A DNA stretch of 64,000 bases from Pseudoalteromonas ulvae UL12 (GTDB taxonomy: Bacteria; Pseudomonadota; Gammaproteobacteria; Enterobacterales; Alteromonadaceae). Under the pieces are notes generated by a model. That model searched no databases, was not told the DNA's origin, and was given only the letters and a program-made list of their open reading frames with translations. Every line of letters begins with the position of its first letter. Within the stretch, counting starts at the first letter, position 1. Both the position numbers and the translations under genes were made by a program. The stretch spans positions 248,001-312,000 of the forward strand of contig NZ_AQHJ01000023.1 of assembly GCF_014925405.1 (NCBI RefSeq), read 5' to 3'. Below, one piece after another: positions 6,553 to 61,722 of this stretch.

Positions 6553-6834
6553 ATGAATCCTGATATCCCCCGTGTTAGCCCCACCGAACGCGATGCCCTA
6601 CTCTGCACAGTCAAGGCCGACTTTGAACAATATCAGGGTAGTCTTATCGAAGGGGATAAACATGGCAATGGCCAAAAATTAAAGCTGTTTGTGATGGCCA
6701 ATGTCACTACGTTTCACCTAATCCATAACAGCAGTACCGCACAAGAAATCGATCAGTTTTGTAAGCAGTATTCTTGGTTTTACCCATTATTTGCCACTAT
6801 CAAAGAATTATTTGATGACTCAGAAAATGACTAA
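6553..6834 (+). CDS. Small hypothetical protein, 93 residues
   Basis: No family is recognised. The protein is soluble and acidic with predicted helices (DALLCTVKADFEQYQG, EIDQFCKQYSWFYPLFATI) and no signal peptide or membrane segment. It has its own upstream region and a perfect 12-bp hairpin immediately after the stop, so it behaves as a single-gene unit. The composition matches neighbouring genes and the frame is clean, so it is probably real. Confidence 0.6.
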   Translation: MNPDIPRVSPTERDALLCTVKADFEQYQGSLIEGDKHGNGQKLKLFVMANVTTFHLIHNSSTAQEIDQFCKQYSWFYPLFATIKELFDDSEND

Positions 6835-6870
6835 CGCTGTTTAGCCCCAGTGATCAGAGGCTAAACAGCG
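6835..6870. terminator. 12-bp perfect hairpin between convergent genes
   Basis: CGCTGTTTAGCC, a 12-base loop, then GGCTAAACAGCG. It begins directly after the stop of the 93-residue gene and lies 34 bases past the end of the convergent permease gene, so it probably ends transcription from both sides. It lacks a clear U tract. Confidence 0.65.
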
Positions 6871-6904
6871 AGAGCGAACTCCCTCCCTGTAACCGCGACT
6901 CAAT

Positions 6905-22593: not shown

Positions 22594-22760
22594 ATTGATT
22601 TTAAATAGTTTGTATTTAAAATCAATACAAAATCGGTATCAAAATTAGTTATGGATTGAATAACTTCTGTTTATAAATCATTGATTGTAAAAATCACAAA
22701 CAAACTCTGTCGCTATATAAAGTCGTTTACACAAATAACACCGATGCCAATCTCCCCGTG

Positions 22761-23055
22761 ATCACGCCCTAAGAATAACCAATTGATGAGTCATGCATTT
22801 CATGGATGAAATGTAAGGTGAAGCTTGGCCATGGATGGCCTATCTTCACCGCTGACGTTCACATCAATTGATTATTTGCAGGATAAAGCGTGATGTCGGG
22901 GCGCTGGGGTGACGAAAGACCAAAGCACCGCTTTGCAGCTTGAGGAAGTGGAAGCATGGATGCTGACAGGAACCCCGCTTCATGGATGAATTACAACCGC
23001 AAAATAGTTCAGGGCTCCACCCCTCTTTGGCTGCCCATGCCCTCGCGACAACGAT
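22761..23055. repeat. Large structured repeat element, copy A
   Basis: Outer arms begin ATCACGCCC and end AGCGTGAT (22761-22894), with complementary inner segments around CAATTGATGAG and CACATCAATTG. Inside are two hairpins: CATTTCAT/ATGAAATG (22796-22813), and GGTGAAG/CTTCACC enclosing GGCCAT/ATGGCC (22817-22850). A less conserved tail with CCCCTCTTTGGCTGCC follows, as in the two other copies at 61513 and 62756. A half copy is at 23239-23282. The 300-base stretch holds no credible gene. Confidence 0.75.
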
Positions 23056-42024: not shown

Positions 42025-43317
42025 TTAAGGCATGTTTACACAAATCTCGTAGTACCATAAATCTGAATAGGGATGTGATACCAATGAACCCAAAGTAAAA
42101 ATATTGCCGGCTTCATCAGTCAAAGAGTTAACCCCTATTGGCACAGACCCCTTTTCTACCCCATCCCATACAAAGCGATTAGATCCATAACTAGTATTGT
42201 GATAAACAAATGTTTGCCCTGTAAAGTTGGCATCATTACGACCTTGGTTATCCCCATAAAAAGCGCATTGTGCGGCGATTAATGTATTGCTTGGCACAAA
42301 ACTAAACTCACTAAACGTCGCGTTATAACTTGATGATTTAGTTGTCCCCCAGGTGTATAGCTCAAAGCGGTCTCCTGCACTCACAACTATATCCTGAACG
42401 ACCCCTGAGGCACTACCTGCTGTCGATAGATCGTAATTTTCATCATTAATGACGTAACGGATCACATCACCATATTGACCTGCTGAGCTGACAGCTATAC
42501 TCCAAGCAAAATTAATCGTACCATCGGCTGGAATGTCAATTGCCGCAGTAACCCCACCGCCGCCATAATTAACAGAAGCATTTAACGCAGTTGCTGACAT
42601 GTTTGTGTTCGCCACGCCGGTAATATTCCAGTTAATAGCACTAAAGGCATCGTTAAAGCCTATCGTGGCAGCTTCATTGTACGTACCACATTTATAATGG
42701 TAACGCATGGTATTGCTTGTTGGTCTTTCTAACTTTAGATAACTCAGTACTTCATTATTTGGGCAGCTAACTTGGTGTCTATCAAGGTAAACAGCATTAC
42801 CTCCGCCATCTTCATTAGTTGGTGTAAAGTAATCCGTCATATTGATCAGCGCTTTATCGCTACATTGATAATGATATTGCATCGTACTTGCGGTTGGTCT
42901 TTGTAAGTGCAAAGACTGCAGTCCTTTACCTTGGCAATTAATTGTATGACGATCTAAATAAACAACATTACCACCACCATCGTCATGAGCTGGAGTATAT
43001 ATATCAACGCTCGTAGCATTATTAAGGGTGCTACAACCATATTCATAAGCGATTTGAGTGGATGATGGTCTGAAAAGGCGAAGTGAATTGATACCATCAT
43101 TACCACAATCAACATAATGGCGATCAAGAAATACCGCGTTTCCTTGACCATCATCATTCGCTGGTGTTGTCATTTGATATGTCGATGCACTGACATAATA
43201 TGGTGATGCTAGCAGCGCAATTAATGGCAGTGATAACGCCTTAAACTTGCTTCTGATTTTGTTTAAGCAACATTGCTGATCCGTTAAGGAAGTAATCCTT
43301 TTGAAATAAATATTCAT
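42025..43317 (-). CDS. Secreted protein with three tandem cysteine-containing repeats
   Basis: 430 residues. The N terminus has a long basic segment then a signal-type stretch (ALSLPLIALLASPYYVSAS). Residues ~50-215 hold three ~53-residue repeats, each with a TP-x-(N/H)-(D/E)DG-GNA/VV-LDRH motif, a cysteine soon after, a RP(S/T) motif and a Y-Y-C end. A strand-rich region (~220-345) and a C-terminal domain with two cysteines (AAQCAFYG...YYEICVNMP) follow. AGGAG precedes the ATG. No known family is claimed. It is probably an extracellular or periplasmic binding protein. Confidence 0.6.
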   Translation of the reverse strand: MNIYFKRITSLTDQQCCLNKIRSKFKALSLPLIALLASPYYVSASTYQMTTPANDDGQGNAVFLDRHYVDCGNDGINSLRLFRPSSTQIAYEYGCSTLNNATSVDIYTPAHDDGGGNVVYLDRHTINCQGKGLQSLHLQRPTASTMQYHYQCSDKALINMTDYFTPTNEDGGGNAVYLDRHQVSCPNNEVLSYLKLERPTSNTMRYHYKCGTYNEAATIGFNDAFSAINWNITGVANTNMSATALNASVNYGGGGVTAAIDIPADGTINFAWSIAVSSAGQYGDVIRYVINDENYDLSTAGSASGVVQDIVVSAGDRFELYTWGTTKSSSYNATFSEFSFVPSNTLIAAQCAFYGDNQGRNDANFTGQTFVYHNTSYGSNRFVWDGVEKGSVPIGVNSLTDEAGNIFTLGSLVSHPYSDLWYYEICVNMP

Positions 43318-43634: not shown

Positions 43635-46600
43635 CTATAAAAGAGTTTGTCTTGTTATTGAATCATGTGTTGGCGCGGCCTCCACTATCTTATTAACAAC
43701 TTGTGGGGGTTGATTTTTTATCGCTGTTAATAGCGCTTCTAATGCTTTTAATTGATCTTCACTCTGCTTTATTTGCTGTTCAGCGCTTTGCTTATTTTGC
43801 TGACTTATTAGTTCGACTACTGTTTTATTACTTCTAAGTTCATCAAACAATTTATTTATTAGCTCTACAGGGATCTGAGTCGCCTTATTATCTTTTAGTG
43901 TATCTAAAATCCCAGCTAACTGCTGAGTATGATCAAGTGGCGCTATTGCTAATAATTGCTCACTCAATTCATTTACCTGACTTTGATTACTCAATAATAA
44001 TGCTTGTTTTAAATCATTTATCAGCACTTCAACAGAGTTATGCTCAAGCGCATTAGCGATTTGCTTCAGTTCATCTTTTGTATTTAAATGCTCTGTTTGC
44101 ATCTTCAAAGTGTTAATCAACAACTCAAAATGTTGTTGGTTATTATTACTCATAATTGCTTGCGTTAACTTATCTCCAAGGTTTTCTATTTGCGCTCGAT
44201 TATCATTACTCATAATGGCGCGACTCAATGCACTCATCACATCTTGATTATTCAATAACGCTAACTGTTCACATAATTGCTTTTCGAGTGAGGTAATTGA
44301 CTCATTACTATTGGTCGCTGTTATTACTTGAGCTAACTCATTCAATTGCTGGTGATTATTATTGCTTGATACAGCAGTAATTAACTCATTCATAGCACTG
44401 CCTAGTTGCTCAAATGAACTTTGATAGTCGGTTTGTTTAAAACCATTATCTAAAGTTTTTGCAATTACCGCCAAAGCACTCTTACTATCCAAGCTCTGAA
44501 TCTGCTCCCCAACATGTTGGAATAATGTACTGTAATCGTGACTGAGATTACTTTTACTGAGCTTATTAGCGATACTTTCTAATGATTCATGAAGGTAGCC
44601 CATTTGTTCAACAGCCATCATCACAGGGCTACCAGCGCTATCGAGTTTATTTAAGCGTATAAAATCGTCTTTAATTTGACAGTATCGCGCATGCTCTTCT
44701 TGCGTTAATGTACCGCGTAATTCACCCAGTTTAAGTAAATTCTCCTCAGAACCTTTACTCAGTGTTTGTGCTTCGCTTCGGTAATGATCACGTATAAGAT
44801 TTTCAAGCTCTTCTTCATTCATAGCTGCGACAACCTTTTCTGCCATTTTATTCATATTGCGGTAACTACCCTGCAATTTAAATGGCGGCTCGGTACGGTA
44901 ATTATTATCTTGGGCGGCCGAAGCAATATATTGAGCATTGACTTTAAGTACAGTATTACGAATAGTCATTAGGCGCGTAAGTACAGCTTTAATTTCGTTC
45001 ACTTCAGCTTGAGAATAACCGTACTCAAGTTCATTTAAAGAGATCTCTTCGCCTTGACTGATACGCACAAGTTTATATAAATCATCCATATTACGATTAG
45101 CTAACGGGGCTAAAACTGCATTTGAGGTCAACGCATTCTCAATAAAGCTCATTGCAAACTCTTGTTCACAACCAGCCAGAGTATCCCCTAGATTATAAAT
45201 ATCAGCACGATTGGCAAGCATATCAGGAATTTTAAAACTCTCGCCGGACTCCGTGTACGGGTTACCAGCCATCACCACAGCAAATTTTTTGCCTCGTAAA
45301 TCATAGGTTTTGCTTTTTCCGTTCCATACACCATCAATTCGGCGTGAGCCATCACACAATGAAATGAATTTTTGCAAAAACTCTGGATTGGTATGCTGAA
45401 TATCATCCAAATAGAGCATTACGTTATTACCCATTTCAAAGCTTTGATTGATTTTAGTAATTTCTTTTTCAGCCGTGGCATTAATCGCTTGAGCAGGATC
45501 AAGAGAGACTTGATCATGACCAATTGAAGGACAATTGACTTTAACAAAAGTAAGCCCTAAACGATTTGCGACATACTCAACTAAGGTAGTTTTACCATAA
45601 CCAGGTGGTGAAATTAATAACAACATCCCCATTAAATCAGTACGTTTGTTCTTGCCTGCTGAGCCAATTTGTTTCGCCAAGTTATCACCGATAATTGGAA
45701 AGTACACTTTGTTAATTAACTGATTACGAACGAACGAGCTCAATGGTCTTGCTTTAAATTCATCAAGCTGAAGACGCTCTTTTTGTTCAGCTAAAATATC
45801 ACTGCGTAATGTGTGATATTGCTCAAACGCTGGTACTTGGTCGGTGATATATTTACGCGTTCGTGCATAAAAATCAGCGTAATCGACATGCAGTCTTTGC
45901 TCTTGTACTCGCTTGTGTTGACCCATAAGGCGCTCTACCTGTGTTACTGGGGTAACATCAAGTACACGATACTGCAGTTTTGTTGTTGCACATAAATGCA
46001 CATAATTTGCAGCTTCAGCCTGTACAACTGCATTTACAGCCTCACTTTGCATGCAATAGGCATTGACCCAACTTAAAAATAGTAATGCACGCTCATCCGT
46101 TTGCGTGACATTTTCGCACGCATGATTAAGCTCATTTACATAGCCTTTTGCTTTAGCGTCGCTACTAAATTGCTCGGCTAAGTTTTTGGCCTGCTGAGAG
46201 ATAATAAACAGTTGTTGTTCTGCTGTTTTTTGCTGCGCTAACTGCTGCACTAAGTATGCTGCGGCTAAATCACTTGATAAATCAGTGAAGCGAGCACACA
46301 GTTTACTTATTTGTGGTAAATACGTTGAAATTTGCTGACTTAACTGCTCATTCAAAGAGCTAATAAAACTAGTTGCACCAAAGTGTTTCTCCATCAAAAT
46401 GGCATTGCTTGCTTGATGGTAAATTGTATTCAGTTGTACAACTGATAACTGCGCGCTAAACAACTGGGCAACAATCCGACAGCTAGATGGATAAATAAGT
46501 AAATCAAGGCTATTTTTTTGCGTGAGTAAGGTATCGATAATGGCACACGCGTCGTGGTCGTGAATACCTTTTTCGTAACCTTCTTGGTAACGTGGTTCAG

Positions 46601-49487
46601 CGAATTTTTGCACCAACTGTAACAAAGTGCCCGCTTGTTGTGCTTGCTGAAGTTGCAAATAAGTAAGCGGATGCTCACTATTTTCACAAGAAAGTAATAT
46701 TTGAGCAGATAAATATTCTGCACGATAAACCTCATCACTTTCTGAGACCAATGTTTGCTGCCACAAATGACGGCTTTGCTCTAATGTTTTAAGGCTTTGC
46801 TCATCGGTAATTGCTTCAAAGTAATCCGTGCCTGTTAGATGTAGCATCAGCTGCTCATCGCGAGGTAATAAAGTTAAGTCTAGTAGTTGCTTATTGACGC
46901 TAAAAGCATGTTTACCAATACTGACGGTATTGCCACCATCAGTGAAAATATCTTGTTTATCGCGTAAAGAGCGAATGCCTTGATCTTTACTCGCTTTGAG
47001 TTTTGATTGAATATCATCGGCACGTATTTCATCGCCTAACTCTTTAAGCTCAGAAGTTAACGCACGTAATTTGCTGATCATAGGATCAGCAGCAAAATAG
47101 GTATTTAGCTTTTCCAGCTCAGTAAAGCTTTGCGCACGACGGTTTACACCTTCTAAAATACGATCAGCCGCATTCGCTAAATTCAAAGATCGGCGCTGAC
47201 GCGCATCGATCAAACTTTGTTTATGCGCTTCAAAGCTTTCATATACGTCATCGCGTTTTGCAATAATCTCACTGAGGTATTCGTCAAAGTCACTAAATTG
47301 TGATTCAAGCTCTTCGAGCTGAATAAGTAATCGTGATAATTGGTCGTCACAAGCTTCTGGTGTTTTGGCGTTATTTAACGCATTAGTAATACTTTGCGAA
47401 AACAGTTTAAAGCGTGCGGAAAATTCAGCCTTTGCTTCAACACTGCCGAGACTTTTTTGACGAATTTCAATGCTCGCTTTAGCACGGTTAACCAATGCAT
47501 AAACAGCACTAATATCTTCTAATATTTGCGTTCTTACGCGGCTGTCATCAATATCTAAATCAAGCATGGTGTGGTTGAGCAAATCAAGCTCCACACTTTG
47601 CGTATCAAGTTGAGCGATATAAGTTTTAAGCTCACTGACACTTTCACTTTTACTGCTAAGCTCTTCCAGCCCTTTTAATTTTTCGTGGTACGGCGCTAAT
47701 GCGCTATCTTGTTGTAAAAATGCAGCGGTGGCTTGGCTAAGATCATCTAGCCTTTCATCTATTTGATTTTGTAGCCCCTTAAGTGCCTCCGTGTCGATGT
47801 ACTTAATATCTTCAAGACTGATCACTTGCCCTTTAAGAATCTTTAACCCATCAATTCCTTGCACAAACTGCGACGCAGCTTTAAAACTATCAGGACGTAT
47901 ATCACGCGTAACGTTTGTGTATTGTGTATTAATATCCACTAAGGCTTGCTTGGCTTTGTTTTGAATTTCAGTCACTTTCTCAAATTCATCCAGCACTTGC
48001 TCAGCAGTTTCATTAATACTACGCAGGTTGTGTGCTAATTCGTTAAACTCCCCCTCATTCAACCAGTGATAGCGATCGAATATATTACGACTTAACACGA
48101 TCATATCTTCGTAATGAAAAAGACTTGGGCTTTGTTCGTTGATTGCCTTACAGACACTGTACAAGTCAGAAATACCTCGTACTAAATCGGGATTGCCTAT
48201 TTTTCCAAAAAAACTGGTTAGTGGCGGAGAATTCGCAGCAAATTCAGCTGACACAAATGGACTTTGCCAAATTTGTACAGGATGAACACGCTCAGGCTCA
48301 TCTTTATCTGCTTTAAATGTGAGAGTTAAACCATCGTTGTATATGCTGTAGCCATGACAATAAATAGGGTTTTGTAGATTTTTGTCAATAATATTGTAGG
48401 CAAATAATGCATAACGACCTTCATTTGGCTCATAAAAAACGTATAACACATCTTCGCCGTTGGGCGATTTTATTTGCCTTTGAAATTCAAGATCTTCTAT
48501 TTGTTCTTCAAAAGAGCGCGCTTGTCCTGACTGTAGATAATACCCACCAGGAAAAATAATTCCGTGATTTTCAGGTAACGTTATACACGCACTGCCAATC
48601 GCATCTTGGCGCATGACTTGTTGGGTTCGAGTATTATAAATAAAATATCGCCAAATCTTTTCTCGATAAGGAAGTATTTTTAAAAGCACCAAGTCGCCAA
48701 CTAATGCATATTCAATATCGCTATCGGCAAGAGATTGATTTTTATCATCAACCGGCTCCTGATAAAGACCTTTCCCGGTATCAGTACTATTTTCGATTTT
48801 AATCGTCAGTGAACCACCAATCGTTTCGACGAAGACTTTATCGGCAATATTTATATGGGCATGGCGTCCTTCAATATGATTACTACGGTCAGTTTTAAGC
48901 CATTCAAAATCGTAGTCATGAGCGTGCAAAACATCTCGCTCGCCACGGTTATCTATATAGTTGAGGGTATTGTCTGGGTGAATTTCCCAGCGAAAAACCC
49001 GCACATCCGATAACTTGTCACCAATTTGGAATAACGCAAATAATTTACCGTTTTGTTGGTATAAGTGCTGTAAACTCGTTTGTTTGTAATATGTATAAAG
49101 TTCTTCAAAGTCTCGAATAAACCGAGAATCAGTCAAAAATCGGAGTGATTCTAAATAAGGTTCGATTTCATAATGTTCATCTTGTTTGACTAACTTTTGT
49201 ACACTAAAAACATCGCTAATTGAGGTTTCTTTTTTCAAACCTAAAAAGACATTGTAAGCAACAATGACTTTATCACCCACAATGACCATGTCTCTCGGTG
49301 TGCAGTTTTGCTCAGTGCGGATCCGGACCCGCCCTTTAACTTGCAGTTCAGTACTGCCGAACTCCTTAATTCGCTGTTGATTAACTTCATCAATTTGCGT
49401 TTTCAAATTGGCGCCAAAATTACTTAATCTGCGTTTTATTAACTCGTATGAACCCTGTTCTAACGCTTGTTGCGTTGCGTCCGTCAT
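43635..49487 (-). CDS. Giant coiled-coil AAA ATPase encoded with YqiJ/YqiK
   Basis: 1950 residues. The first ~430 are strand-rich, with repeated short sheets suggestive of a propeller-like sensor. Residues ~450-860 are long charged helices (coiled coil). A further helical region leads to an AAA module: Walker A SPPGYGKTT with Lys1299, Walker B VMLYLDDIQH with Asp1361/Asp1362, then VVMAGNPYTESGE (sensor 1 region). The last ~330 residues are helical, Gln/Asn-rich imperfect repeats (NNHQQLNELAQVI, NDNRAQIENLGDKL, NNNQQHFELLINTL). Such proteins are often labelled DNA repair ATPases without direct evidence. It follows yqiK by 73 bases and shares its operon. The operon suggests a membrane-microdomain partner rather than a stand-alone DNA repair enzyme. 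Confidence 0.8.
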   Translation of the reverse strand: MTDATQQALEQGSYELIKRRLSNFGANLKTQIDEVNQQRIKEFGSTELQVKGRVRIRTEQNCTPRDMVIVGDKVIVAYNVFLGLKKETSISDVFSVQKLVKQDEHYEIEPYLESLRFLTDSRFIRDFEELYTYYKQTSLQHLYQQNGKLFALFQIGDKLSDVRVFRWEIHPDNTLNYIDNRGERDVLHAHDYDFEWLKTDRSNHIEGRHAHINIADKVFVETIGGSLTIKIENSTDTGKGLYQEPVDDKNQSLADSDIEYALVGDLVLLKILPYREKIWRYFIYNTRTQQVMRQDAIGSACITLPENHGIIFPGGYYLQSGQARSFEEQIEDLEFQRQIKSPNGEDVLYVFYEPNEGRYALFAYNIIDKNLQNPIYCHGYSIYNDGLTLTFKADKDEPERVHPVQIWQSPFVSAEFAANSPPLTSFFGKIGNPDLVRGISDLYSVCKAINEQSPSLFHYEDMIVLSRNIFDRYHWLNEGEFNELAHNLRSINETAEQVLDEFEKVTEIQNKAKQALVDINTQYTNVTRDIRPDSFKAASQFVQGIDGLKILKGQVISLEDIKYIDTEALKGLQNQIDERLDDLSQATAAFLQQDSALAPYHEKLKGLEELSSKSESVSELKTYIAQLDTQSVELDLLNHTMLDLDIDDSRVRTQILEDISAVYALVNRAKASIEIRQKSLGSVEAKAEFSARFKLFSQSITNALNNAKTPEACDDQLSRLLIQLEELESQFSDFDEYLSEIIAKRDDVYESFEAHKQSLIDARQRRSLNLANAADRILEGVNRRAQSFTELEKLNTYFAADPMISKLRALTSELKELGDEIRADDIQSKLKASKDQGIRSLRDKQDIFTDGGNTVSIGKHAFSVNKQLLDLTLLPRDEQLMLHLTGTDYFEAITDEQSLKTLEQSRHLWQQTLVSESDEVYRAEYLSAQILLSCENSEHPLTYLQLQQAQQAGTLLQLVQKFAEPRYQEGYEKGIHDHDACAIIDTLLTQKNSLDLLIYPSSCRIVAQLFSAQLSVVQLNTIYHQASNAILMEKHFGATSFISSLNEQLSQQISTYLPQISKLCARFTDLSSDLAAAYLVQQLAQQKTAEQQLFIISQQAKNLAEQFSSDAKAKGYVNELNHACENVTQTDERALLFLSWVNAYCMQSEAVNAVVQAEAANYVHLCATTKLQYRVLDVTPVTQVERLMGQHKRVQEQRLHVDYADFYARTRKYITDQVPAFEQYHTLRSDILAEQKERLQLDEFKARPLSSFVRNQLINKVYFPIIGDNLAKQIGSAGKNKRTDLMGMLLLISPPGYGKTTLVEYVANRLGLTFVKVNCPSIGHDQVSLDPAQAINATAEKEITKINQSFEMGNNVMLYLDDIQHTNPEFLQKFISLCDGSRRIDGVWNGKSKTYDLRGKKFAVVMAGNPYTESGESFKIPDMLANRADIYNLGDTLAGCEQEFAMSFIENALTSNAVLAPLANRNMDDLYKLVRISQGEEISLNELEYGYSQAEVNEIKAVLTRLMTIRNTVLKVNAQYIASAAQDNNYRTEPPFKLQGSYRNMNKMAEKVVAAMNEEELENLIRDHYRSEAQTLSKGSEENLLKLGELRGTLTQEEHARYCQIKDDFIRLNKLDSAGSPVMMAVEQMGYLHESLESIANKLSKSNLSHDYSTLFQHVGEQIQSLDSKSALAVIAKTLDNGFKQTDYQSSFEQLGSAMNELITAVSSNNNHQQLNELAQVITATNSNESITSLEKQLCEQLALLNNQDVMSALSRAIMSNDNRAQIENLGDKLTQAIMSNNNQQHFELLINTLKMQTEHLNTKDELKQIANALEHNSVEVLINDLKQALLLSNQSQVNELSEQLLAIAPLDHTQQLAGILDTLKDNKATQIPVELINKLFDELRSNKTVVELISQQNKQSAEQQIKQSEDQLKALEALLTAIKNQPPQVVNKIVEAAPTHDSITRQTLL

Positions 49488-49515
49488 AAATAGCTATCCT
49501 GATATGTGATTGAAG

Positions 49516-49545
49516 TTAGCCGCAATTGTGTTTTATTGCGGCTAA
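49516..49545 (-). promoter_or_regulatory. 10-bp hairpin between yqiK and the giant ATPase gene
   Basis: TTAGCCGCAA and TTGCGGCTAA with a 10-base loop, in the 73-base gap. It has no U tract after it in the direction of transcription, so it is more likely an intercistronic stabiliser or partial attenuator than a full terminator. Confidence 0.5.
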
Positions 49546-49560
49546 AAAGATGGCGTGAGA

Positions 49561-51663
49561 TTAGTCTTTGTTATCTAATTTGATTTTATCTGTTAAACCA
49601 TGTCCTACGTTACCGCCCAACATGTTCAATAATTGGCTTTTTTCTGCAGCTGTCGTATTACTTAACTGCTTGAGTAACTTACTCATATTAAAGTTTTTAA
49701 GTGTTTCGGCTGAACCGTTTGCACCCGCTAAAACACCTTTTAGATCTTCAATTAAATTACGCTCACCATTTAAATGGTCTTTAAATACGGTTTGTACAAT
49801 TTTACTTTCATCAACAAGACCATCAATGGACTTCCCTAGACTTATTGCACTCATGAATTGATTAAAGAACTGACCATCTCCACCCATAATATTAATATCA
49901 GCTTCACCTAAAGCTTTGGCCATTATATGTGCTTGATGTTCAGCAATATCTTTACTGGCTGAAATTTTTGCCAGCACCAATTCTTTTTGCTGATTAAGCT
50001 GTAAGGTAAAGCTTTCATAATCACGCGCATCTTGATCCATCGCATTTAAGGCTTTCAACTTCTCTTCAAGCCCTTTGGCTTCGGCGCGCATTTTGCGCTC
50101 AAGATTAATCGCTTCGACTTCACCTTGTTTCTCATTCGCATCAACCATCGCAGTTTGAACCTGAACTTGCGCTAAGCCCACTTCCCTATTCCCCTGCGCT
50201 TCAGCTTCTAGTTTCTGACGCATGACCTGCGCATCAATTTCACCTTGTATCGCATTCGCTTCCGCTTTTGCTTTGATCACATCCGCTTCAGCCAAGCCTT
50301 GAGCTGCCGTTTCGACTTGCAGTGCCTGTGCTAGAATTTTCTTAGACTCAGCTTGTTGATTAGCAATTCTCAACTCGGCATTCGCCATTGTTTCCAGTTC
50401 GCGAGCTTTGAATTCTGCGGCCTGCTCTTGTGCTTTTGCCGCTTCAATATCTTTCACTAATAATTCTTCAGCTTGGGCTTTAGCACGAATAATCATTGCA
50501 CCTTTTTCACGCTCTGCACCCGCTAATACTTTGACATCTTTAATTCGCTCTTCTTCTTCTGCGACAGATTTTTCAACAATTACACGATCTCTGACAACAT
50601 CCGCAATTTCTTTTCGCTCAACTTCCAATGCCTTTTCTTTATTAATTCGTAAAATTTCAGTTTCTCTTTCACGTTCAATCACTTCTATTTCACGAGAACG
50701 CGCTACTTTCTCTTCTTCAATACCTAATACTCGTAAACGATTTTGTTCTGCTATATCGAGTTCACGTTGTTTATTTTGTTCACTGATCCCAATAGCTTCT
50801 TCTGCTTGAATACGTGCAAGTTCTGATTTCAAACGTTCTTCTTGACGTACCTTTTCTGCTTCAGCAAATTCACGAGCTTTCACAGTTTCAATTTCACGAA
50901 CTTGACGTGACATCGCATCTTGTTTTTGGCGTTCTATTTCTAACGTTTTTTCGGTAGCTTCTTGATTTTGAATCTCAATTTTAGCCCGCTCATCGCATTT
51001 TAACTGATTCGTTGACACGTTTTGTACCGCCGTCATTTCAGTAATACGACGTATGCCTTCTGCATCAAGAATATTTTGGGGATCCAGTTTATCTATGGAA
51101 GTTTGCTCAAGATAATCAATCGCAACATCTTCCAAGGTATAGCCAGATAAATCCTGGCCGATGACCTCTTTTATGTTATCGCGAAATTCATTTCGATGAG
51201 TAAACAACTCAACAAAATCCATCCTTTTACCAACTGTTTTCAATGCTTCTGAAAATTTTGCTTCGAATAGTTCTTGTAGCGTGTCATGTTCAGAAGCCCG
51301 CGCGCAGCCTACTTGCTTCGCAACTCGTAAAATATCATCTTTATTTTCATTCACGCGAATATAAAAAGTAATGGCTATGTCCGCACGAATATTATCTTTA
51401 CAAATCAACCCGCCTTTATCCTTTCGCTCAAGTACCATGCGTTTGGTTGATATATCCATTACTTCCATTTTATGGATAACAGGGTAAACAATTCCGCCCG
51501 TCGTAGTAACATCAGGTTCGCTCTTCATTTTATTAATGATCAGCGCTTGTCCTTGCTCTACCTTGCGGTAAAACTTGCCTATGATCAGTAAAATAGCAAA
51601 AATGACTGTTATCGCTATACCTACAAAAGTAAAAATAGGTATGAGATTATCTAAAAATTCCAT
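49561..51663 (-). CDS. yqiK: Flotillin-like SPFH protein YqiK
   Basis: 700 residues from the ATG at 51663 (AGGA seven bases upstream); the longer frame has no support. One N-terminal membrane segment (IPIFTFVGIAITVIFAILL) is followed by an SPFH/band 7 domain (~45-215: GQALIINKM, IRADIAITFYIRV, GYTLEDVAIDYLEQ). A very long Glu/Ala/Lys/Arg-rich coiled coil covers ~230-560, and a C-terminal region contains GANGSAETLKNFNMSKLLKQ. YqiK forms membrane microdomains in other bacteria. It follows the yqiJ gene by 113 bases and precedes the giant ATPase, so the three are probably co-expressed. Confidence 0.92.
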   Translation of the reverse strand: MEFLDNLIPIFTFVGIAITVIFAILLIIGKFYRKVEQGQALIINKMKSEPDVTTTGGIVYPVIHKMEVMDISTKRMVLERKDKGGLICKDNIRADIAITFYIRVNENKDDILRVAKQVGCARASEHDTLQELFEAKFSEALKTVGKRMDFVELFTHRNEFRDNIKEVIGQDLSGYTLEDVAIDYLEQTSIDKLDPQNILDAEGIRRITEMTAVQNVSTNQLKCDERAKIEIQNQEATEKTLEIERQKQDAMSRQVREIETVKAREFAEAEKVRQEERLKSELARIQAEEAIGISEQNKQRELDIAEQNRLRVLGIEEEKVARSREIEVIERERETEILRINKEKALEVERKEIADVVRDRVIVEKSVAEEEERIKDVKVLAGAEREKGAMIIRAKAQAEELLVKDIEAAKAQEQAAEFKARELETMANAELRIANQQAESKKILAQALQVETAAQGLAEADVIKAKAEANAIQGEIDAQVMRQKLEAEAQGNREVGLAQVQVQTAMVDANEKQGEVEAINLERKMRAEAKGLEEKLKALNAMDQDARDYESFTLQLNQQKELVLAKISASKDIAEHQAHIMAKALGEADINIMGGDGQFFNQFMSAISLGKSIDGLVDESKIVQTVFKDHLNGERNLIEDLKGVLAGANGSAETLKNFNMSKLLKQLSNTTAAEKSQLLNMLGGNVGHGLTDKIKLDNKD

Positions 51664-51776
51664 GTTATGTCCTAACGTGATTATTAATTTATTATTCGTC
51701 ACAAAGCAGCTAACAAAACTCACTATTGATATGAGTGGTAAATCACAACGGTGTTTGACCATTCATATCAATAAAT

Positions 51777-52391
51777 TTACCAAGGTTTTGCGGCTATGAT
51801 GTAACAATGCTTCTCTTTTAGGTAGTCAAGTAACACAGCCGTATCACCGGATGTAAAGGTGTCATTATTCTCAACCCTTACTTCGATTAGCTGTTCGGTA
51901 CCTTGAAATTGCGTACGAGCTTGGCCAAATGTATTTGTTACTTTCCCTGTAATAACAGTACACTCGAGACCGATTAGATCGGAACTTTGGGAAGTTTCAG
52001 CACTTTTAAAAAAACGCTGAAGTGGGCGTGAAATAATGGCAGCAACAGGGACTGAGACCAATAAACACGTAAGAATCATTAATAATCCTATGATATAAAG
52101 CTGAGGCCCATTACCGAGTATATTTATAAATAATTGATGTGCATAAATACTGATCAACCAGCTAAACATCACAACAAGACTAATCGAAACGGTAAGCGGA
52201 ATGTCGCCAAAACCCATATTAGACCACAAATTAGTATCAGTACTTTGAGTGGTATCTGCATCTATATCTGATTCAAACATATCAATATCTGCAAAACCAA
52301 TAATTGTTGTCATCCAAAACAACAGTACAACAAGCAACAATGCAGAAAAAATAATGGTGGGAAACGTAAACGCTAAGTTAAGAAAATCCAT
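51777..52391 (-). CDS. yqiJ: YqiJ-like NfeD/OB-fold membrane protein
   Basis: 204 residues. Three or four hydrophobic segments (~8-30, ~65-90, ~95-125) are followed by a C-terminal OB-like strand domain (DLIGLECTVITGKVTN, TQFQGTEQLIEVRVEN). This is the layout of YqiJ, the usual partner of the flotillin YqiK, comparable to NfeD with its SPFH partners. It is the first gene of the minus-strand operon yqiJ-yqiK-ATPase. Upstream lies a 530-base AT-rich region and then two plus-strand lipoprotein genes. Confidence 0.88.
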   Translation of the reverse strand: MDFLNLAFTFPTIIFSALLLVVLLFWMTTIIGFADIDMFESDIDADTTQSTDTNLWSNMGFGDIPLTVSISLVVMFSWLISIYAHQLFINILGNGPQLYIIGLLMILTCLLVSVPVAAIISRPLQRFFKSAETSQSSDLIGLECTVITGKVTNTFGQARTQFQGTEQLIEVRVENNDTFTSGDTAVLLDYLKEKHCYIIAAKPW

Positions 52392-54348: not shown

Positions 54349-55137
54349 TTATTCGGCCACTGAAAATTGCGAAAACCAGCCTGCAGACATGCCCTTTTGT
54401 AAAACGTTTATCACCATTTGTGCGCCCTGCTCTTGGGTCTCACAAAATGGTGTGATTGCTTCACATACTAAGCTAAAAGGTAAGCCGTTATAAAAGGATT
54501 GCATGCATTGGTATTCTATTTGGGTAAGAGGTGTGAATTCGGTGCGAATATCGGGTGTGCGCGCTAATAACCAATAGCGTTTTTTCTCTGGCTCTGTTAC
54601 TGAAGGCGATTGCCCTTGTTTGAGTGCGTGCCAACTGGGCACGGCATTGGTTTGAGTTTCAAATAATTGCATGCTCGGATGACATGTTAAGAGCAATTGA
54701 GGCCATGCTTGTGCAGGAAGCTGCTGTAACAACTCAAGTGTGAGATGAGGTGCATCGGGTGCATCAAACGCACTGAGGAGTAAGCGCTCAAATTGAGCGA
54801 TTTCAGATAAAATTGGGTGAGCGTTAAATGGGGGCGTCGCCGCTAAAAATTTCGGAAGCGCATCGCCAAATTGACGCAATGATGGCGAAGAAGATGGATG
54901 ATGTTGCAGATACCCTGTGACCATCTCATCAAATAAGTTATCGCCTAAGTATAAGCCGAGCATTTCATGATCTTGCTCTAATACTTGAGTTAAACGTATT
55001 TGATAGGCAGATAAATAAATAGACGCGCGCTGTTGGCGATTCAAGCCTGATTGATCGGTAATGCTGTTAAGCAAACTTGGGTCGCCAGTTTTTAAAAACG
55101 CGACAAATTGCTGTTGCAGGTGCGCTAACTCAGTCAT
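54349..55137 (-). CDS. bufC: BufC/HvfC-type DNA-binding-domain (DUF2063) protein
   Basis: 262 residues. The N-terminal ~95 are the DUF2063 domain (LQQQFVAFLKTGDPSLL, RASIYLSAYQIRLTQVLEQDHEML), and the rest a helical domain with TPLTQIEYQCMQSFY. Despite the domain's name, in bufferin and related RiPP systems this protein acts as the partner of the DUF692 enzyme and helps it recognise the precursor. It overlaps bufB by eight bases. Recognition is by order and domain; the gene name follows bufferin nomenclature. Confidence 0.85.
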   Translation of the reverse strand: MTELAHLQQQFVAFLKTGDPSLLNSITDQSGLNRQQRASIYLSAYQIRLTQVLEQDHEMLGLYLGDNLFDEMVTGYLQHHPSSSPSLRQFGDALPKFLAATPPFNAHPILSEIAQFERLLLSAFDAPDAPHLTLELLQQLPAQAWPQLLLTCHPSMQLFETQTNAVPSWHALKQGQSPSVTEPEKKRYWLLARTPDIRTEFTPLTQIEYQCMQSFYNGLPFSLVCEAITPFCETQEQGAQMVINVLQKGMSAGWFSQFSVAE

Positions 55138-55972
55138 TTTTTTTCCAGCTTAATGGGGCTATTTGTCTCACTTTATCAAGTTCGGATAACCATTCACTAA
55201 AGGGGGCGAAATTATCATCTCGTTCAATCATAGTGTTCACGGGTGCGCGCATGTTTGCATAGCGTGTAAACAAATCCCAAACCGCATCGCAAACGGGCTG
55301 ATCATGGGTGTCGATAATGTGCGTGCCAAAATCACTGTGGCCAGCTAAATGAATTTGCGCCACTGCTTGCTCAGGAATAGCGAGCAAGTATTCCATCGGG
55401 TCGAATCCATGATTACGGGCACTGACATAAACATTGTTGATATCGAGTAAAAACTGGCAGCCTGTTGCATGATGCAGTTCAGCTAAAAAGTCCCATTCGG
55501 TCATGTGTGATTGCGTATAGCTTAAATAACTCGATACATTTTCTAAAACTAATGGGCGTTCGAGGAAATCTTGAACTTGATTAAGTCGGGTCGCTAAATG
55601 AGATAAGGCTTCGTGAGTATAAGGTAAGGGTAACAAATCATGGCTATTAAAATCCCCAAGTGACGAAAAACATAAGTGGTCTGAAATCCACATCGGTTGT
55701 ACTCGATCAATGGTTTTTTTCAATTGAGTTAAATAATTAACATTGAGTTCATCGGTACGCCCGATTGACAAAGATACACCATGCATGGCGATGGGATAAC
55801 GCTCTTTTATTTGATCGAGGTAATACCAAGGTTTGCCACCTGCGACAAAATAATTCTCAGAAATAATCTCAAACCAATCCACATCAGGCTGCTCTGATAT
55901 GACAGCGTCAAAATATGTACTTCGTAAACCTAACCCAAACCCTACAAATGGCGCAGACATAATCATCCTCAT
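55130..55972 (-). CDS. bufB: DUF692 multinuclear iron oxidase (BufB/HvfB-type)
   Basis: 280 residues with the TIM-barrel MNIO pattern: GFGLGLRSTYFDAVI, WFEIISENYFV, AMHGVSLSIG, WISDHLCFS, LLDINNVYVSARNHG, QIHLAGHSDFG and MIERDDNF, which carry the His/Asp/Glu metal ligands. These enzymes change cysteines in precursor peptides, for example to thiooxazoles in bufferins. It follows the bufA precursor and overlaps bufC, so it should modify that peptide. An attenuator-like hairpin in the 59-base gap after bufA may lower its expression relative to the precursor. Confidence 0.92.
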   Translation of the reverse strand: MRMIMSAPFVGFGLGLRSTYFDAVISEQPDVDWFEIISENYFVAGGKPWYYLDQIKERYPIAMHGVSLSIGRTDELNVNYLTQLKKTIDRVQPMWISDHLCFSSLGDFNSHDLLPLPYTHEALSHLATRLNQVQDFLERPLVLENVSSYLSYTQSHMTEWDFLAELHHATGCQFLLDINNVYVSARNHGFDPMEYLLAIPEQAVAQIHLAGHSDFGTHIIDTHDQPVCDAVWDLFTRYANMRAPVNTMIERDDNFAPFSEWLSELDKVRQIAPLSWKKND

Positions 55973-55987
55973 AGGTTAAAAATAAAA

Positions 55988-56013
55988 GGCTAAGTAACGG
56001 TCGTTACCCAGCC
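55988..56013 (-). terminator. Attenuator-like hairpin between bufA and bufB
   Basis: On the minus strand, GGCTGGGTAACG, loop AC, CGTTACTTAGCC form a full 12-pair stem in RNA, the two central G-T positions being wobble pairs only on this strand. TTTTATTTTT follows directly. That is an intrinsic terminator placed between precursor and enzyme genes, which would leave the precursor more abundant than the enzymes. Confidence 0.8.
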
Positions 56014-56031
56014 CATTTTCTGGCTAAGCGA

Positions 56032-56484
56032 TTAAATATCGACTTTACCGCCAATATCCTTACATGATTTAGCTGGCATAGAGACAAATCCAGTGCCTTT
56101 ACATGATGCATGACCTGCACACGCATTAGACGCAGTTTTACAATCGTTATGACCACCACAAATATTAACATCATTACAATGTACTAAATCTGCTTTCGCT
56201 ATTTCACCAACCCAGTTATCTTCAATTTTACCGCCAACATCAGCACACGCTTTACTCGGCATAGCGACAAAACCAGTCCCTTTACACGATGCATGACCAG
56301 CACACGCGTTAGACGCTGTTTTACAGTCATTATGACCACCACAAACGTTAACATCGTAACAATGTACTAAATCTGACGTTGCGCCTTTTGCTGAATTAGC
56401 CACGTTGTTTGATTCATTTGTTGCGTTACATCCAACTAAACCCGCAACCATAAGCGCCATAGCGGTGCCTGTTAATGCTTTCAT
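56032..56484 (-). CDS. bufA: Bufferin-type precursor (BufA2-like) with two tandem cysteine cores
   Basis: 150 residues from the ATG at 56484. The signal (LTGTAMALMVAGLVGC) ends in a lipobox-like LVGC at 16-19, so the precursor may be a lipoprotein. Two copies of a ~50-residue core follow, with cysteines at 42, 48, 54, 61, 67, 80 and at 103, 109, 115, 122, 128, 141: the same spacing in both. The repeated motifs VCGGHNDCKTASNACAGHASC and GFV(A/S)MP are those of BufA2-family metal-binding RiPPs, where DUF692 enzymes modify the core cysteines and the product chelates copper outside the cytoplasm. Two cores in one precursor is notable. Confidence 0.88.
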   Translation of the reverse strand: MKALTGTAMALMVAGLVGCNATNESNNVANSAKGATSDLVHCYDVNVCGGHNDCKTASNACAGHASCKGTGFVAMPSKACADVGGKIEDNWVGEIAKADLVHCNDVNICGGHNDCKTASNACAGHASCKGTGFVSMPAKSCKDIGGKVDI

Positions 56485-57303
56485 GTTATTTATCCTCAAT
56501 TATAAAGTGTCGGTAGAATTATTGACCCTAGGTGGTCAGTTCGCTACTTTTCAAAAATGAACAGAAGCCATGTGACTCAATATCGATTTCAGCCCTGTTT
56601 GGGCGGATTCATCAGCCCAGTTCATGGATGTGAAAATCAATGGCTTGCGGCACTGTTTGAAATCATTGAACATCTGCTGGCTAAAAAGACCTTGCTCTGC
56701 TGATTTTCATTTCAAAACGTGAAAAGAAATTTTAGATTGATGAATTTTGCTATTACTGCTGTTTAAAACAGTGTTTAGAACCAAAAGGGTAAAATCAAGT
56801 ACGGATTATCATAAGCGATTGTAAAATTGGAAAATTTTTGAATAACTCAGGGTTTTACCCTTCTGATTTTTAAAGGTGGTTATTGATTTAACAACAAGTA
56901 ACTCTATTGAAAAGCTGTCAAGCTAAACCTCGGCCGACAAAACAGCGACACTTAAGGCTTTGGCTAGCAGAACCTAAAAGCGTACAAGGATGTATTAACG
57001 TGCCGATTCATAGCAGCTATACCCATATCAAATCTATTCTTGAAGCTCAGGGACACCGAGGGTTCCAAGGAATCATCGGCGATAACCTCTCCTTGGCTGC
57101 CGTCAACAAATCCAATCATCTAAGCACTGCTAACTACACTCAAAAGTCAATGGTTGCCGAGCATCACAAGCAAGCTGGCAACAGCAATTTTATCGTCAAT
57201 GGTACAGCATAATGAAGGTTATATTCTCTTCTAAAAAACTTGAATTTACCTAAAAAGAAAACTTAATTTAAACGTACACCGCATCTATCAAATGGAATTT
57301 GAA
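56485..57303. other. Intergenic stretch with degenerate repeat sequence, no secure gene
   Basis: About 820 bases with no convincing gene. A 101-codon frame at 56907-57212 begins inside a degraded REP-like sequence (GCTGTCAAGCTAAACC) and has no ribosome site or recognisable product. GCCCTGTTTGGGC near 56600 and other short palindromes are present. The right end must contain the promoter of the chitin-binding-like gene. Confidence 0.5.
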
Positions 57304-59546: not shown

Positions 59547-61337
59547 CTAAATTTTATTGTTAATTTTATCAACAAAATTTTTGTATGGATTATTTCTTAT
59601 TTGATCTTTAAGGGTTAAGAAAATAGTACCAAATGCGCTAGAAAATTCATTTGTTACACTTGCAATCTCGTTAGAGTTTGAAAGTCTATTTTTTAATCCT
59701 GGTTTGAGAGTCTTTAAGTTATGGGATAATTTAGTAAGCAAATCTTTCCATAAATTAATACAAGTATCGCGTTGTAACTTTTGATTAAAAGCAATTCCGT
59801 ATGTGCATTTTACATTAGTTTCCAACAATACCTCGATAATTTTACTCATTGCATGGATAATCATAAAAGCACTACCTCTTTCATTCAAAAATGCTAAAAA
59901 CTCTTTTTCATTTTGCTGTGTTTCATTCTTCTTATCTTTTAATCTTAAATCGTCTTTTAACAAATTGGTTGCTTCTAACAATGTGTAAATAAATAAGATA
60001 TGGCCAGCTGTTATCGTTGGATGAAAAGCAAGACTGTATAGTTCATCATTATCCCAAATAGCCATTTTTTTATGATAACTATCAGACGGGTTACCATGCC
60101 AAGCCATTAACGCTTGAGCTGCTGAATGCGCATCAATTTTAAGCTTTCTGTCAGTTGATGTAACCCCCCTTAGACCACCATCATATTCAGCAGAATTGAA
60201 TTTAGTGAACTCTTCTCGCAGGCGTTTTTGAATTGCATCATTAGCTCTGAAATCTGACTGCAATACTCGATTTTGGCTGTTGTTATAACGTGTTATTGAT
60301 TCAATTTTGTCCTTATTTTCACACTTTATGAACCTAACACCGACTTGTATATTATCTAAATTAATATCATTATCTAGAGAACCTAATGAACCAGTGGTTT
60401 GAGCACCATTGACGATTGATATACCCTTAATCGATTTGATTTTTGTTTGATCATTTTCATCAAGCGTGAATTCATGAACTAACGCTGTAATTCCGTTATT
60501 AAATACAAAAAAGTCAATCGGGGATGTTCTTGCTGAAGCTTGAATACCTGCATTTATAACTTTATCATTATCTTTATTGTTTGCCCCCATGAAGCCTCTA
60601 ACATTGGCACTAAAAAGCTCAGTCCTATCGAATTTTCTATATAAACTTGCTAGCCAATCACCTGAAACTGTAGTTACGAATGTGTCCCAATCAGAGTCTG
60701 AAACACGAAAACCTTTACTCGGTTGATTTAAATAAATTTCTTCGTCAATTATTATTGCTTGTTTAGAGGACTTATAGAAAACATCTAGAGTTTCTAATCC
60801 AACTTCTTTAATACTTATATTAATATCAAATTCATGCTTTTGATACTTTGTTAGTAGTTCTTGCGCTGGCGCTAAGATTGGTTGCATCTGTTGTTTGATT
60901 TGCTCATTTTCGGGAAGATTATGTACATACCAAATATGTAGCATATTTATTTCACCTGATTTGAGGGCTTCCCTAGCATCTAGAACATGGGGCTTTATAC
61001 CTAACGGAATATCATTTTCAGGTGAAGCGAGCAAAACGTTTACAGCATAAGATAAATCAGCTCCTTTGTTACCCTTAGCACTTTTCTTGAAAGTTTGTGC
61101 TTCATACGCTTGTACCAGAACGATGGAGCCTTGATCTCTGTTGACATAAAGTATGTCGGTTTTAGCATCATCACTACCACCTGTTACAGCTGCTGATAAA
61201 GTGTTTAGGACATCATCTAGTCCAAAAAATAGCTCCAAAGCAAAAATTGAGACTTTATTCTCTACAAAAATTTCAAGATCACTCCTGTTTGCAAGTGCAT
61301 TCATAAACTGACTATCTTTAAAGTCGTTATAACTCAT
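59547..61337 (-). CDS. AIPR-family protein (abortive infection phage resistance type)
   Basis: 596 residues. Characteristic AIPR motifs are present: DFFVFNNGITALVHEF, SIVNGAQTTGSL, and NSQNRVLQSDFRANDAIQKRL, followed by a helical C-terminal half. The N-terminal ~150 residues (TDILYVNRDQGSIVLVQAYEAQ) are a distinct domain. AIPR proteins are linked to abortive phage defence, often inside larger systems; this one has no partner gene. AAGGAATAGAAA precedes the ATG. It is AT-rich and sits between perfect 19-bp inverted repeats at 59321 and 61451, a sign of recent transfer. Its biochemical activity is unknown. Confidence 0.85.
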   Translation of the reverse strand: MSYNDFKDSQFMNALANRSDLEIFVENKVSIFALELFFGLDDVLNTLSAAVTGGSDDAKTDILYVNRDQGSIVLVQAYEAQTFKKSAKGNKGADLSYAVNVLLASPENDIPLGIKPHVLDAREALKSGEINMLHIWYVHNLPENEQIKQQMQPILAPAQELLTKYQKHEFDINISIKEVGLETLDVFYKSSKQAIIIDEEIYLNQPSKGFRVSDSDWDTFVTTVSGDWLASLYRKFDRTELFSANVRGFMGANNKDNDKVINAGIQASARTSPIDFFVFNNGITALVHEFTLDENDQTKIKSIKGISIVNGAQTTGSLGSLDNDINLDNIQVGVRFIKCENKDKIESITRYNNSQNRVLQSDFRANDAIQKRLREEFTKFNSAEYDGGLRGVTSTDRKLKIDAHSAAQALMAWHGNPSDSYHKKMAIWDNDELYSLAFHPTITAGHILFIYTLLEATNLLKDDLRLKDKKNETQQNEKEFLAFLNERGSAFMIIHAMSKIIEVLLETNVKCTYGIAFNQKLQRDTCINLWKDLLTKLSHNLKTLKPGLKNRLSNSNEIASVTNEFSSAFGTIFLTLKDQIRNNPYKNFVDKINNKI

Positions 61338-61486: not shown

Positions 61487-61512
61487 GCCACAGACAACTC
61501 CCCCCCCCTTCT

Positions 61513-61722
61513 ATCACGCCTGAAAATAAGCAATTGATGAGTAATGTGCTCGCATGGATGCGAGCCAAGCCGTGATTTCGCCAAGGATGGCGAATACATG
61601 GCGTTTACGTTCACATCAATAGCGTTTTGAAGATTAAGCGTGATGGAGGGGCGCCGTGGGAGTCCAGAGGGCGGTCGGCGGCAGCCGCCCTTTGGTTGCC
61701 GTCGCCAACGCGACAAAGGGTT
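61513..61722. repeat. Large structured repeat element, copy B
   Basis: Outer arms start ATCACGCC (61513) and end AAGCGTGAT (61644). Hairpin 1 is CTCGCAT/ATGCGAG (61549-61564). Hairpin 2 is TTCGCCA/TGGCGAA (61577-61594) inside GCCGTG/CATGGC. A third, GGGCGG/CCGCCC, lies in the tail. Base changes relative to copies A and C preserve pairing. Confidence 0.8.

Follow-up and report, generated by a model that had tools for sequence, protein, structure and literature searches.

We examined a 64,000-nucleotide stretch of the Pseudoalteromonas ulvae UL12 genome (contig NZ_AQHJ01000023.1, positions 248,001 to 312,000; hereafter the window, numbered from its first letter), in which three genes running in the same direction on the minus strand encode a YqiJ-like membrane protein, a flotillin and a giant AAA+ ATPase of the DUF3686 family. 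For the genomes examined, the pairing of the flotillin with the ATPase is settled: the two genes stood together in every intact locus, and the flotillin belongs to a clade, called dedicated here, that was never seen without the ATPase in 496 distinct genomes. As judged from gene content and sequence, the ATPase and the dedicated flotillin make up one unit in the intact loci examined.

Co-occurrence of the flotillin and the ATPase

The initial annotation had made its proposal depend on the ATPase not being found mostly apart from the flotillin, and in both genome sets that we searched the same genomes carried both genes. DUF3686 was encoded in 42 of 99 genomes of the genus, and the dedicated flotillin was encoded in exactly these 42, its gene adjoining that of the ATPase on one contig; genome G466 had only a 30% identical flotillin relative and no ATPase. 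In the phylum set, 8 of 398 genomes had DUF3686 and the same 8 had a flotillin of at least 46% identity, and among the 51 genomes with any flotillin match the other 43 had matches at only 26-32% identity. Twenty loci of such generic flotillins were opened; none held the ATPase, and 15 held a yqiJ-like gene.

The gene order was then compared in a wide set of 88 loci, made up of 80 named loci, 7 loci from the phylum set and the window. Since the named loci were the best 80 of 574 confirmed relatives, found with two AAA+ patterns, distant contexts are under-sampled in this set; the locus sets also overlap, with 8 of the 80 named loci being from Pseudoalteromonas and the 7 further loci being phylum hits. 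Upstream of the ATPase, a flotillin gene was found in 84 of the 88 loci and a yqiJ-like gene in 79; wherever either was missed, a contig ended no more than about 400 bases away. The flotillin was no more than 700 bases from the ATPase frame in 82 of 84 loci, the remaining distances being 2.0 and 3.3 kb (L050 and L062). L012 and L136 have a disrupted ATPase frame, which was left uncorrected. The YqiJ-like gene accompanied the pair in every intact locus examined except one; no yqiJ-like gene was detected in L164. The ATPase and flotillin trees largely agreed, with 40 shared splits (55 and 48 supported, respectively) and 3 conflicting pairs.

A separate flotillin lineage with its own membrane partner

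The flotillin of the window has one N-terminal membrane stretch by hydropathy, behind which the SPFH piece alone matched Band_7 (E 1.7e-13), while the full-length protein gave no Band_7 match; these features place it in the SPFH superfamily. In a phylogenetic tree, 42 dedicated and 20 generic flotillins were split by one branch, with support of 100/100, in 200 of 200 bootstrap trees. The dedicated flotillins in this tree were 42 of 82 (every second one plus that of the window, the cut pieces L076 and L079 having been dropped beforehand), and the generic ones came from the 43 genomes with generic flotillins only. The small partner has three hydrophobic stretches within its first 124 residues. 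The Pfam YqiJ models (PF21001 YqiJ_N and PF07290 YqiJ_OB) did not match this protein or five relatives from the module, whereas both models matched the two yqiJ genes checked beside generic flotillins. A home-built YqiJ-like profile gave low scores (23-65 bits) to the yqiJ genes that neighbour generic flotillins; the kinship of the small protein with YqiJ is thus suggested by its gene place and by a profile that was seeded with the protein itself.

Based on the tree split, in a tree that did not include Escherichia coli YqiK, and on the lack of a Pfam YqiJ match, both membrane partners appear to lie outside the ordinary YqiJ-YqiK lineages. The gene names yqiJ and yqiK, used in the initial annotation, therefore fit loosely at best and were not borne out, and genuine YqiJ-YqiK pairs are found where the ATPase is absent.

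It could be argued that the genes are merely inherited together and transcribed in one stress, with no physical complex between their products, as flotillin and ATPase are associated here at the level of genes and the wider neighbourhood holds other enzymes too, for example PLD and rhomboid proteins. We consider this explanation fairly unlikely, since the flotillin clade is a dedicated one that did not turn up without the ATPase in the 496 genomes, and all 20 generic loci opened lack it.

Domain organization of the ATPase and its DNA repair label

The ATPase belongs to PF12458 (DUF3686; E 5.4e-191, 635.4 bits against a curated cut-off of 25). Its N terminus, which had initially been described as sensor-like, is the DUF3686 region and is predicted to be a beta-propeller: the AlphaFold2 model had a predicted local distance difference test score (pLDDT) of 88.1 and a predicted template modelling (TM) score of 0.86, and propeller folds dominated the leading rows of the Foldseek and VIA comparisons, although the fits were loose. 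The coiled-coil middle announced by the initial annotation was supported by heptad periodicity, as none of 200 shuffles was equally strong over residues 480-850 as a whole; the signal was weaker in the blocks 560-640 (18/200 shuffles) and 640-720 (10/200). Membrane stretches were found in the YqiJ-like protein and the flotillin, and none in the ATPase.

The Walker A lysine (Lys1299) and Walker B aspartate (Asp1361) noted initially are as described, and they are invariant in 87 of 87 aligned proteins, an alignment that omits L012 because of its broken frame. Also invariant were the remaining residues of S1293-T1300 together with D1362, N1409, R1427 and R1543; since SPPGYGK is within the locus search pattern, only the invariant residues other than these are independent of how most of the loci were found. 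We take these residues to be, besides Walker A and Walker B, the sensor 1 asparagine (N1409), an arginine-finger candidate (R1427) and the sensor 2 arginine (R1543), and they place the protein among the AAA+ ATPases. The initial description of the C-terminal tail stood only in part. Its Gln/Asn richness was confirmed (21.6% in residues 1660-1950 compared to 11-15% in other parts of the protein), but the helical repeats were weakly supported, with the best internal repeat scoring 67, where 60 shuffles reached at most 61. The tail was rejected as a functional core, as its conservation is confined to the genus.

At least 7,691 relatives were scored, and most of those listed with a name go by DNA repair ATPase or DNA repair protein. 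The initial annotation had regarded this label as ill-founded, and we found little in its favor beyond the P-loop and a fold resemblance to RuvB. Matches to RuvB were weak (E 1.7e-4 to 3.7e-4) and covered 46-77 residues around the P-loop, and RuvB was the best Foldseek match of the AAA+ module by E-value (1.8e-5). However, the full-length RuvB models remained far below their cut-offs (20.6 of 282 bits and 20.2 of 299), and the target TM-scores of most RuvB chains were 0.27-0.35 (one short chain reached 0.54), compared to 0.39-0.57 for NorQ and CbbQ2. The VIA comparison placed MoxR-type remodellers on top; RuvB chains were not among the 50 VIA rows listed, an absence that proves nothing. A DNA repair enzyme is also at odds with the constant linkage to two membrane-protein genes, and we regard this identity as highly improbable; the label probably goes back to the P-loop match. 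In its overall appearance, the ATPase is closer to a machine that remodels proteins than to an enzyme of DNA repair.

It nonetheless differs from MoxR-type proteins such as CbbQ and NorQ in being a giant single chain with a propeller and a coiled coil, and in the Foldseek ranking given above. The helix-2 insert hairpin is a clade mark of MoxR-type AAA+ proteins, and it was not seen in the ATPase model, in which model residues 475-492 are without strands. Searching the PDB sequences with the ATPase profile yielded weak P-loop matches only, and the flotillin had no match there. A literature search, with most subscription papers outside its scope, yielded no paper on DUF3686/PF12458, or on a DNA repair ATPase or MoxR AAA+ protein with flotillin.

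Gene layout and a recurrent hairpin upstream of the ATPase gene

The ORF (open reading frame) listing of the window contains the three genes in the order and at the positions initially annotated (Table 1); the strand had not been given, and all three are on the minus strand. The spacings of 113 bases (YqiJ-like gene to flotillin) and 73 bases (flotillin to ATPase) were also confirmed, and the former puts the flotillin start at the internal ATG at 51663. This start is supported by an AGGA before the ATG and by several homologues with in-frame stops upstream. AGGA, which resembles a ribosome site, is found near the end of both gaps.

Table 1. Features of the flotillin-ATPase locus, with coordinates in the window (aa, amino acids)
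Feature	Coordinates	Strand	Basis
YqiJ/NfeD2-like membrane protein, 204 aa	51777..52391	-	ORF, hydropathy
Flotillin ORF, full open frame	49561..51762	-	ORF listing
Dedicated flotillin (SPFH/Band_7), 700 aa from likely start	49561..51663	-	Band_7, hydropathy, clade, ribosome site
DUF3686 AAA+ ATPase, 1950 aa	43635..49487	-	ORF, Pfam
DUF3686 N-terminal region, residues 28-474, predicted beta-propeller (strands ~49-408)	48066..49406	-	Pfam, AlphaFold2
Coiled-coil middle, residues 480-850, including DUF7902 at 596-678 (E 1.1e-21)	46938..48050	-	Pfam, heptad periodicity
AAA+ module, residues ~1240-1660	44508..45770	-	AAA_5 E 5.6e-10, fold comparison
Walker A, residues 1293-1301, SPPGYGKTT, K1299	45585..45611	-	Sequence, alignment
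Walker B, residues 1356-1362, VMLYLDD, D1361; DD replaces usual DE	45402..45422	-	Sequence, alignment
Gln/Asn-rich tail, lineage-specific, residues 1660-1950	43638..44510	-	Composition, comparison of relatives
11-bp hairpin in the 73-base flotillin-ATPase gap	49516..49545	-	Folding z -6.3 for gap

The gap between the flotillin and ATPase genes holds a hairpin whose 9-bp core is found just once in the 4.74-Mb genome, which rules out a scattered repeat. Folding beat that of shuffled sequences (z < -2) in 35 of 42 flotillin-ATPase gaps of the genus. When fixed 75-base stretches were compared in the genus, z was below -2 in most stretches after the flotillin (31 of 41) and after the ATPase (25 of 40) and in few after yqiJ (6 of 41) or inside the flotillin (2 of 41); the corresponding values in the window were -5.0 after the flotillin, -3.8 after the YqiJ-like gene (51702-51776, minus strand; unusual for the genus) and -0.7 after the ATPase. 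Outside the genus, where gap lengths are approximate and the inside of the flotillin was the only control, the fixed 75-base stretch gave z < -2 in 32 of 62 loci with a gap of at least about 55 bases, in 4 of 13 with a shorter gap, and in 2 of 75 inside the flotillin; folding of the gap itself in 11 wide loci gave z < -2 in 6 of them. The stem sequences vary between subgroups, and a T run follows the stem in, for example, L107 and L111. A simple terminator scan, which overall performed near chance level, found no site in the 113- or 73-base gap. The hairpin may be a leaky terminator or an mRNA-stability element, either of which would give more scaffold than motor; since a strong fold is about as common after the ATPase stop as after the flotillin, it may be a plain leaky terminator.

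PspA, CesT-like and other neighbouring genes

Among the 88 wide loci, same-strand neighbours included genes for CesT-like proteins (39 loci), PspA (39), PLD (21) and rhomboid proteins (16), as detected with home-built profiles made from one sequence each, for which one representative each was checked in Pfam. A zinc-ribbon gene of the PF13453 type was nearby in 16 of the 88 loci, and in seven (L075, L077, L078, L088, L090, L097 and L099) it stood between the flotillin and the ATPase; L090 is from Methylomonas, and the other six are, going by their names, presumably from Betaproteobacteria. An approximately 104-residue protein without a Pfam match recurred in 14 loci, and in L029 it lies between PspA and yqiJ (6654-6965). 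In Hymenobacter, the five genes run in the order CesT-PspA-YqiJ-flotillin-ATPase. Within the genus, 17 of 41 loci had the CesT-PspA pair and 24 did not. No CesT/Tir or PspA gene was found in the window by the home-built profiles, and the CesT-PspA pair of this genome is on another contig. PspA and the CesT-like protein, whose genes neighbour the module in many relatives and are located elsewhere in the present genome, are possible clients or adaptors. The neighbouring M20 peptidase gene is common to only 10 of the 41 genus loci, those of the nearest relatives, so the module has other neighbours in the remaining 31.

These neighbours raise the possibility that the ATPase acts like Vps4 and disassembles polymers of PspA, which is bacterial ESCRT-III-like, with the flotillin merely serving as a membrane anchor. 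The frequent same-strand CesT-PspA genes and the five-gene form fit such a role, as do a PspA-family protein encoded in 99 of 99 genus genomes and ATPase and PspA trees with no conflicting supported splits (40 loci), and ATP-dependent membrane remodelling has been proposed for PspA with AAA+ partners (PMC11237479). However, the flotillin is the constant partner and PspA an optional one, and the 57 genus genomes that lack the ATPase have PspA-family genes just as the others do. The trees leave the matter undecided: distance correlation with the ATPase was lower for PspA (0.60, 40 loci) than for the flotillin (0.92, 82 loci), but split conflicts were no more numerous. On balance, we think the Vps4-like role rather unlikely.

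The ATPase was also present in 12 records of a plasmid collection, some of them chromosome-sized, and the loci of 6 of the 12 were examined. In L161 (plasmid pQBR103), genes of the polyamine-type PspA operon (DUF2491, DUF350, DUF1190 and glutathionylspermidine synthase) directly precede yqiJ-flotillin-ATPase, with no PspA in the stretch shown. These plasmid-collection records, together with the patchy presence in the genus (42/99) and an AIPR-family gene about 7 kb from the operon, could point to a defence or conflict module. Against this, no PADLOC profile matched beyond a weak P-loop match (best E 0.0012, 31 residues), and there was no match among 50,697 phage records at E 1e-30. A known anti-phage system was rejected on these grounds, and a defence module of any kind seems to us very unlikely.

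Other features in the window

Downstream of the ATPase and in the same direction, 42025-43317 (minus strand) encodes a 430-amino-acid protein with three similar segments (D/E-D-G-x-G-N ... L-D-R-H); it had neither a Pfam match nor, at E 1e-10, a counterpart among 44 Pseudoalteromonas loci. The region 54349-56499 (minus strand) encodes an MNIO-type enzyme of ribosomally synthesized and post-translationally modified peptides (PF05114, E 7.5e-105) together with a DUF2063 partner; as a guess, the precursor for this enzyme could be encoded by a small ORF at 56032-56499 (minus strand). Two matches to the TwoAYGGAY RNA family scored above the curated score, at 22745-22910 and 61497-61659 on the plus strand. 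Close to the second match, an AIPR-family protein (PF10592, E 2.9e-34) is encoded at 59547-61337 (minus strand); the family is named after phage-resistance proteins.

Relation to described systems and proposed function

An abbreviated PspA-band-7-AAA+ operon has already been described, with proposed roles in membrane dynamics and complex assembly (mSystems 2024; PMC11237479). The locus in the window corresponds to this abbreviated form: a YqiJ/YuaF-type membrane protein, a membrane-anchored band-7/flotillin protein and an AAA+ protein with a coiled coil and a beta-propeller are common to both, and CesT/Tir-PspA, which makes up the long form and is optional there, was not found in the window by our profiles. 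The window ATPase was equated with the published protein by description rather than by accession. The initial annotation had suggested that the ATPase docks on the flotillin scaffold to remodel the membrane or a bound client, a guess that comes close to the proposal in print, but it had missed the operon and the membrane-dynamics role in PMC11237479. In that paper the AAA+ protein is present "in some cases", whereas the flotillins compared here form two clades, one followed by the ATPase and one not seen with it. Its section 19 has no rhomboid, separate zinc-ribbon gene in this operon, hairpin or dedicated flotillin clade. What is new here is the inseparable pairing, the dedicated clade, the extra neighbours and the recurrent hairpin before the ATPase gene.

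Compared to YqiJ-YqiK (NfeD2-SPFH2; PMC2636767), the locus shares the order of an NfeD-like gene followed by an SPFH gene, the Band_7 domain and the N-terminal membrane stretch, but flotillins of that type are 26-32% identical, fall in the other clade and lack the ATPase in all loci opened, and the YqiJ models match 2 of 2 of their partners that were checked against 0 of 6 here. The FloA-NfeD system of Staphylococcus aureus likewise combines a flotillin with an NfeD-type partner, but it is described as ATP-independent and its abstract names no ATPase (PMC11222466). In a 2026 study, nine SPFH proteins of Pseudomonas aeruginosa showed little phenotype, and its main text has no words beginning with ATPase (PMC13086221).

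We propose, as an evenly balanced proposition, that the ATPase is an ATP-driven remodeller of clients on the flotillin scaffold and that the three proteins form a dedicated membrane machine, the docking of which we infer. The scaffold, made by the YqiJ-like protein and the flotillin, would line the cytoplasmic membrane on its inner face; the ATPase would form a ring via its AAA+ module and be recruited to the scaffold by the coiled coil. The beta-propeller would bind clients or adaptors, among which may be PspA and the CesT-like protein that goes with it, and ATP hydrolysis would remodel or release flotillin-held clients during envelope stress, with the hairpin lowering ATPase output relative to scaffold output. 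A broader version, which we hold only tentatively, is that of a distinct class of energised flotillins, in which the clade and its own YqiJ-like partner would work only with their own propeller ATPase, the motor would unfold or release scaffold-held clients, and the ratio of motor to scaffold would be set by a hairpin of kept shape and changing sequence.

The role of many bacterial flotillins is unsettled, and a clade that occurs solely in the company of its own AAA+ motor offers a clean way into scaffold function. The proposed function would also give a testable role in the envelope to a large family whose named members, among those listed, are mostly called DNA repair ATPases or proteins.
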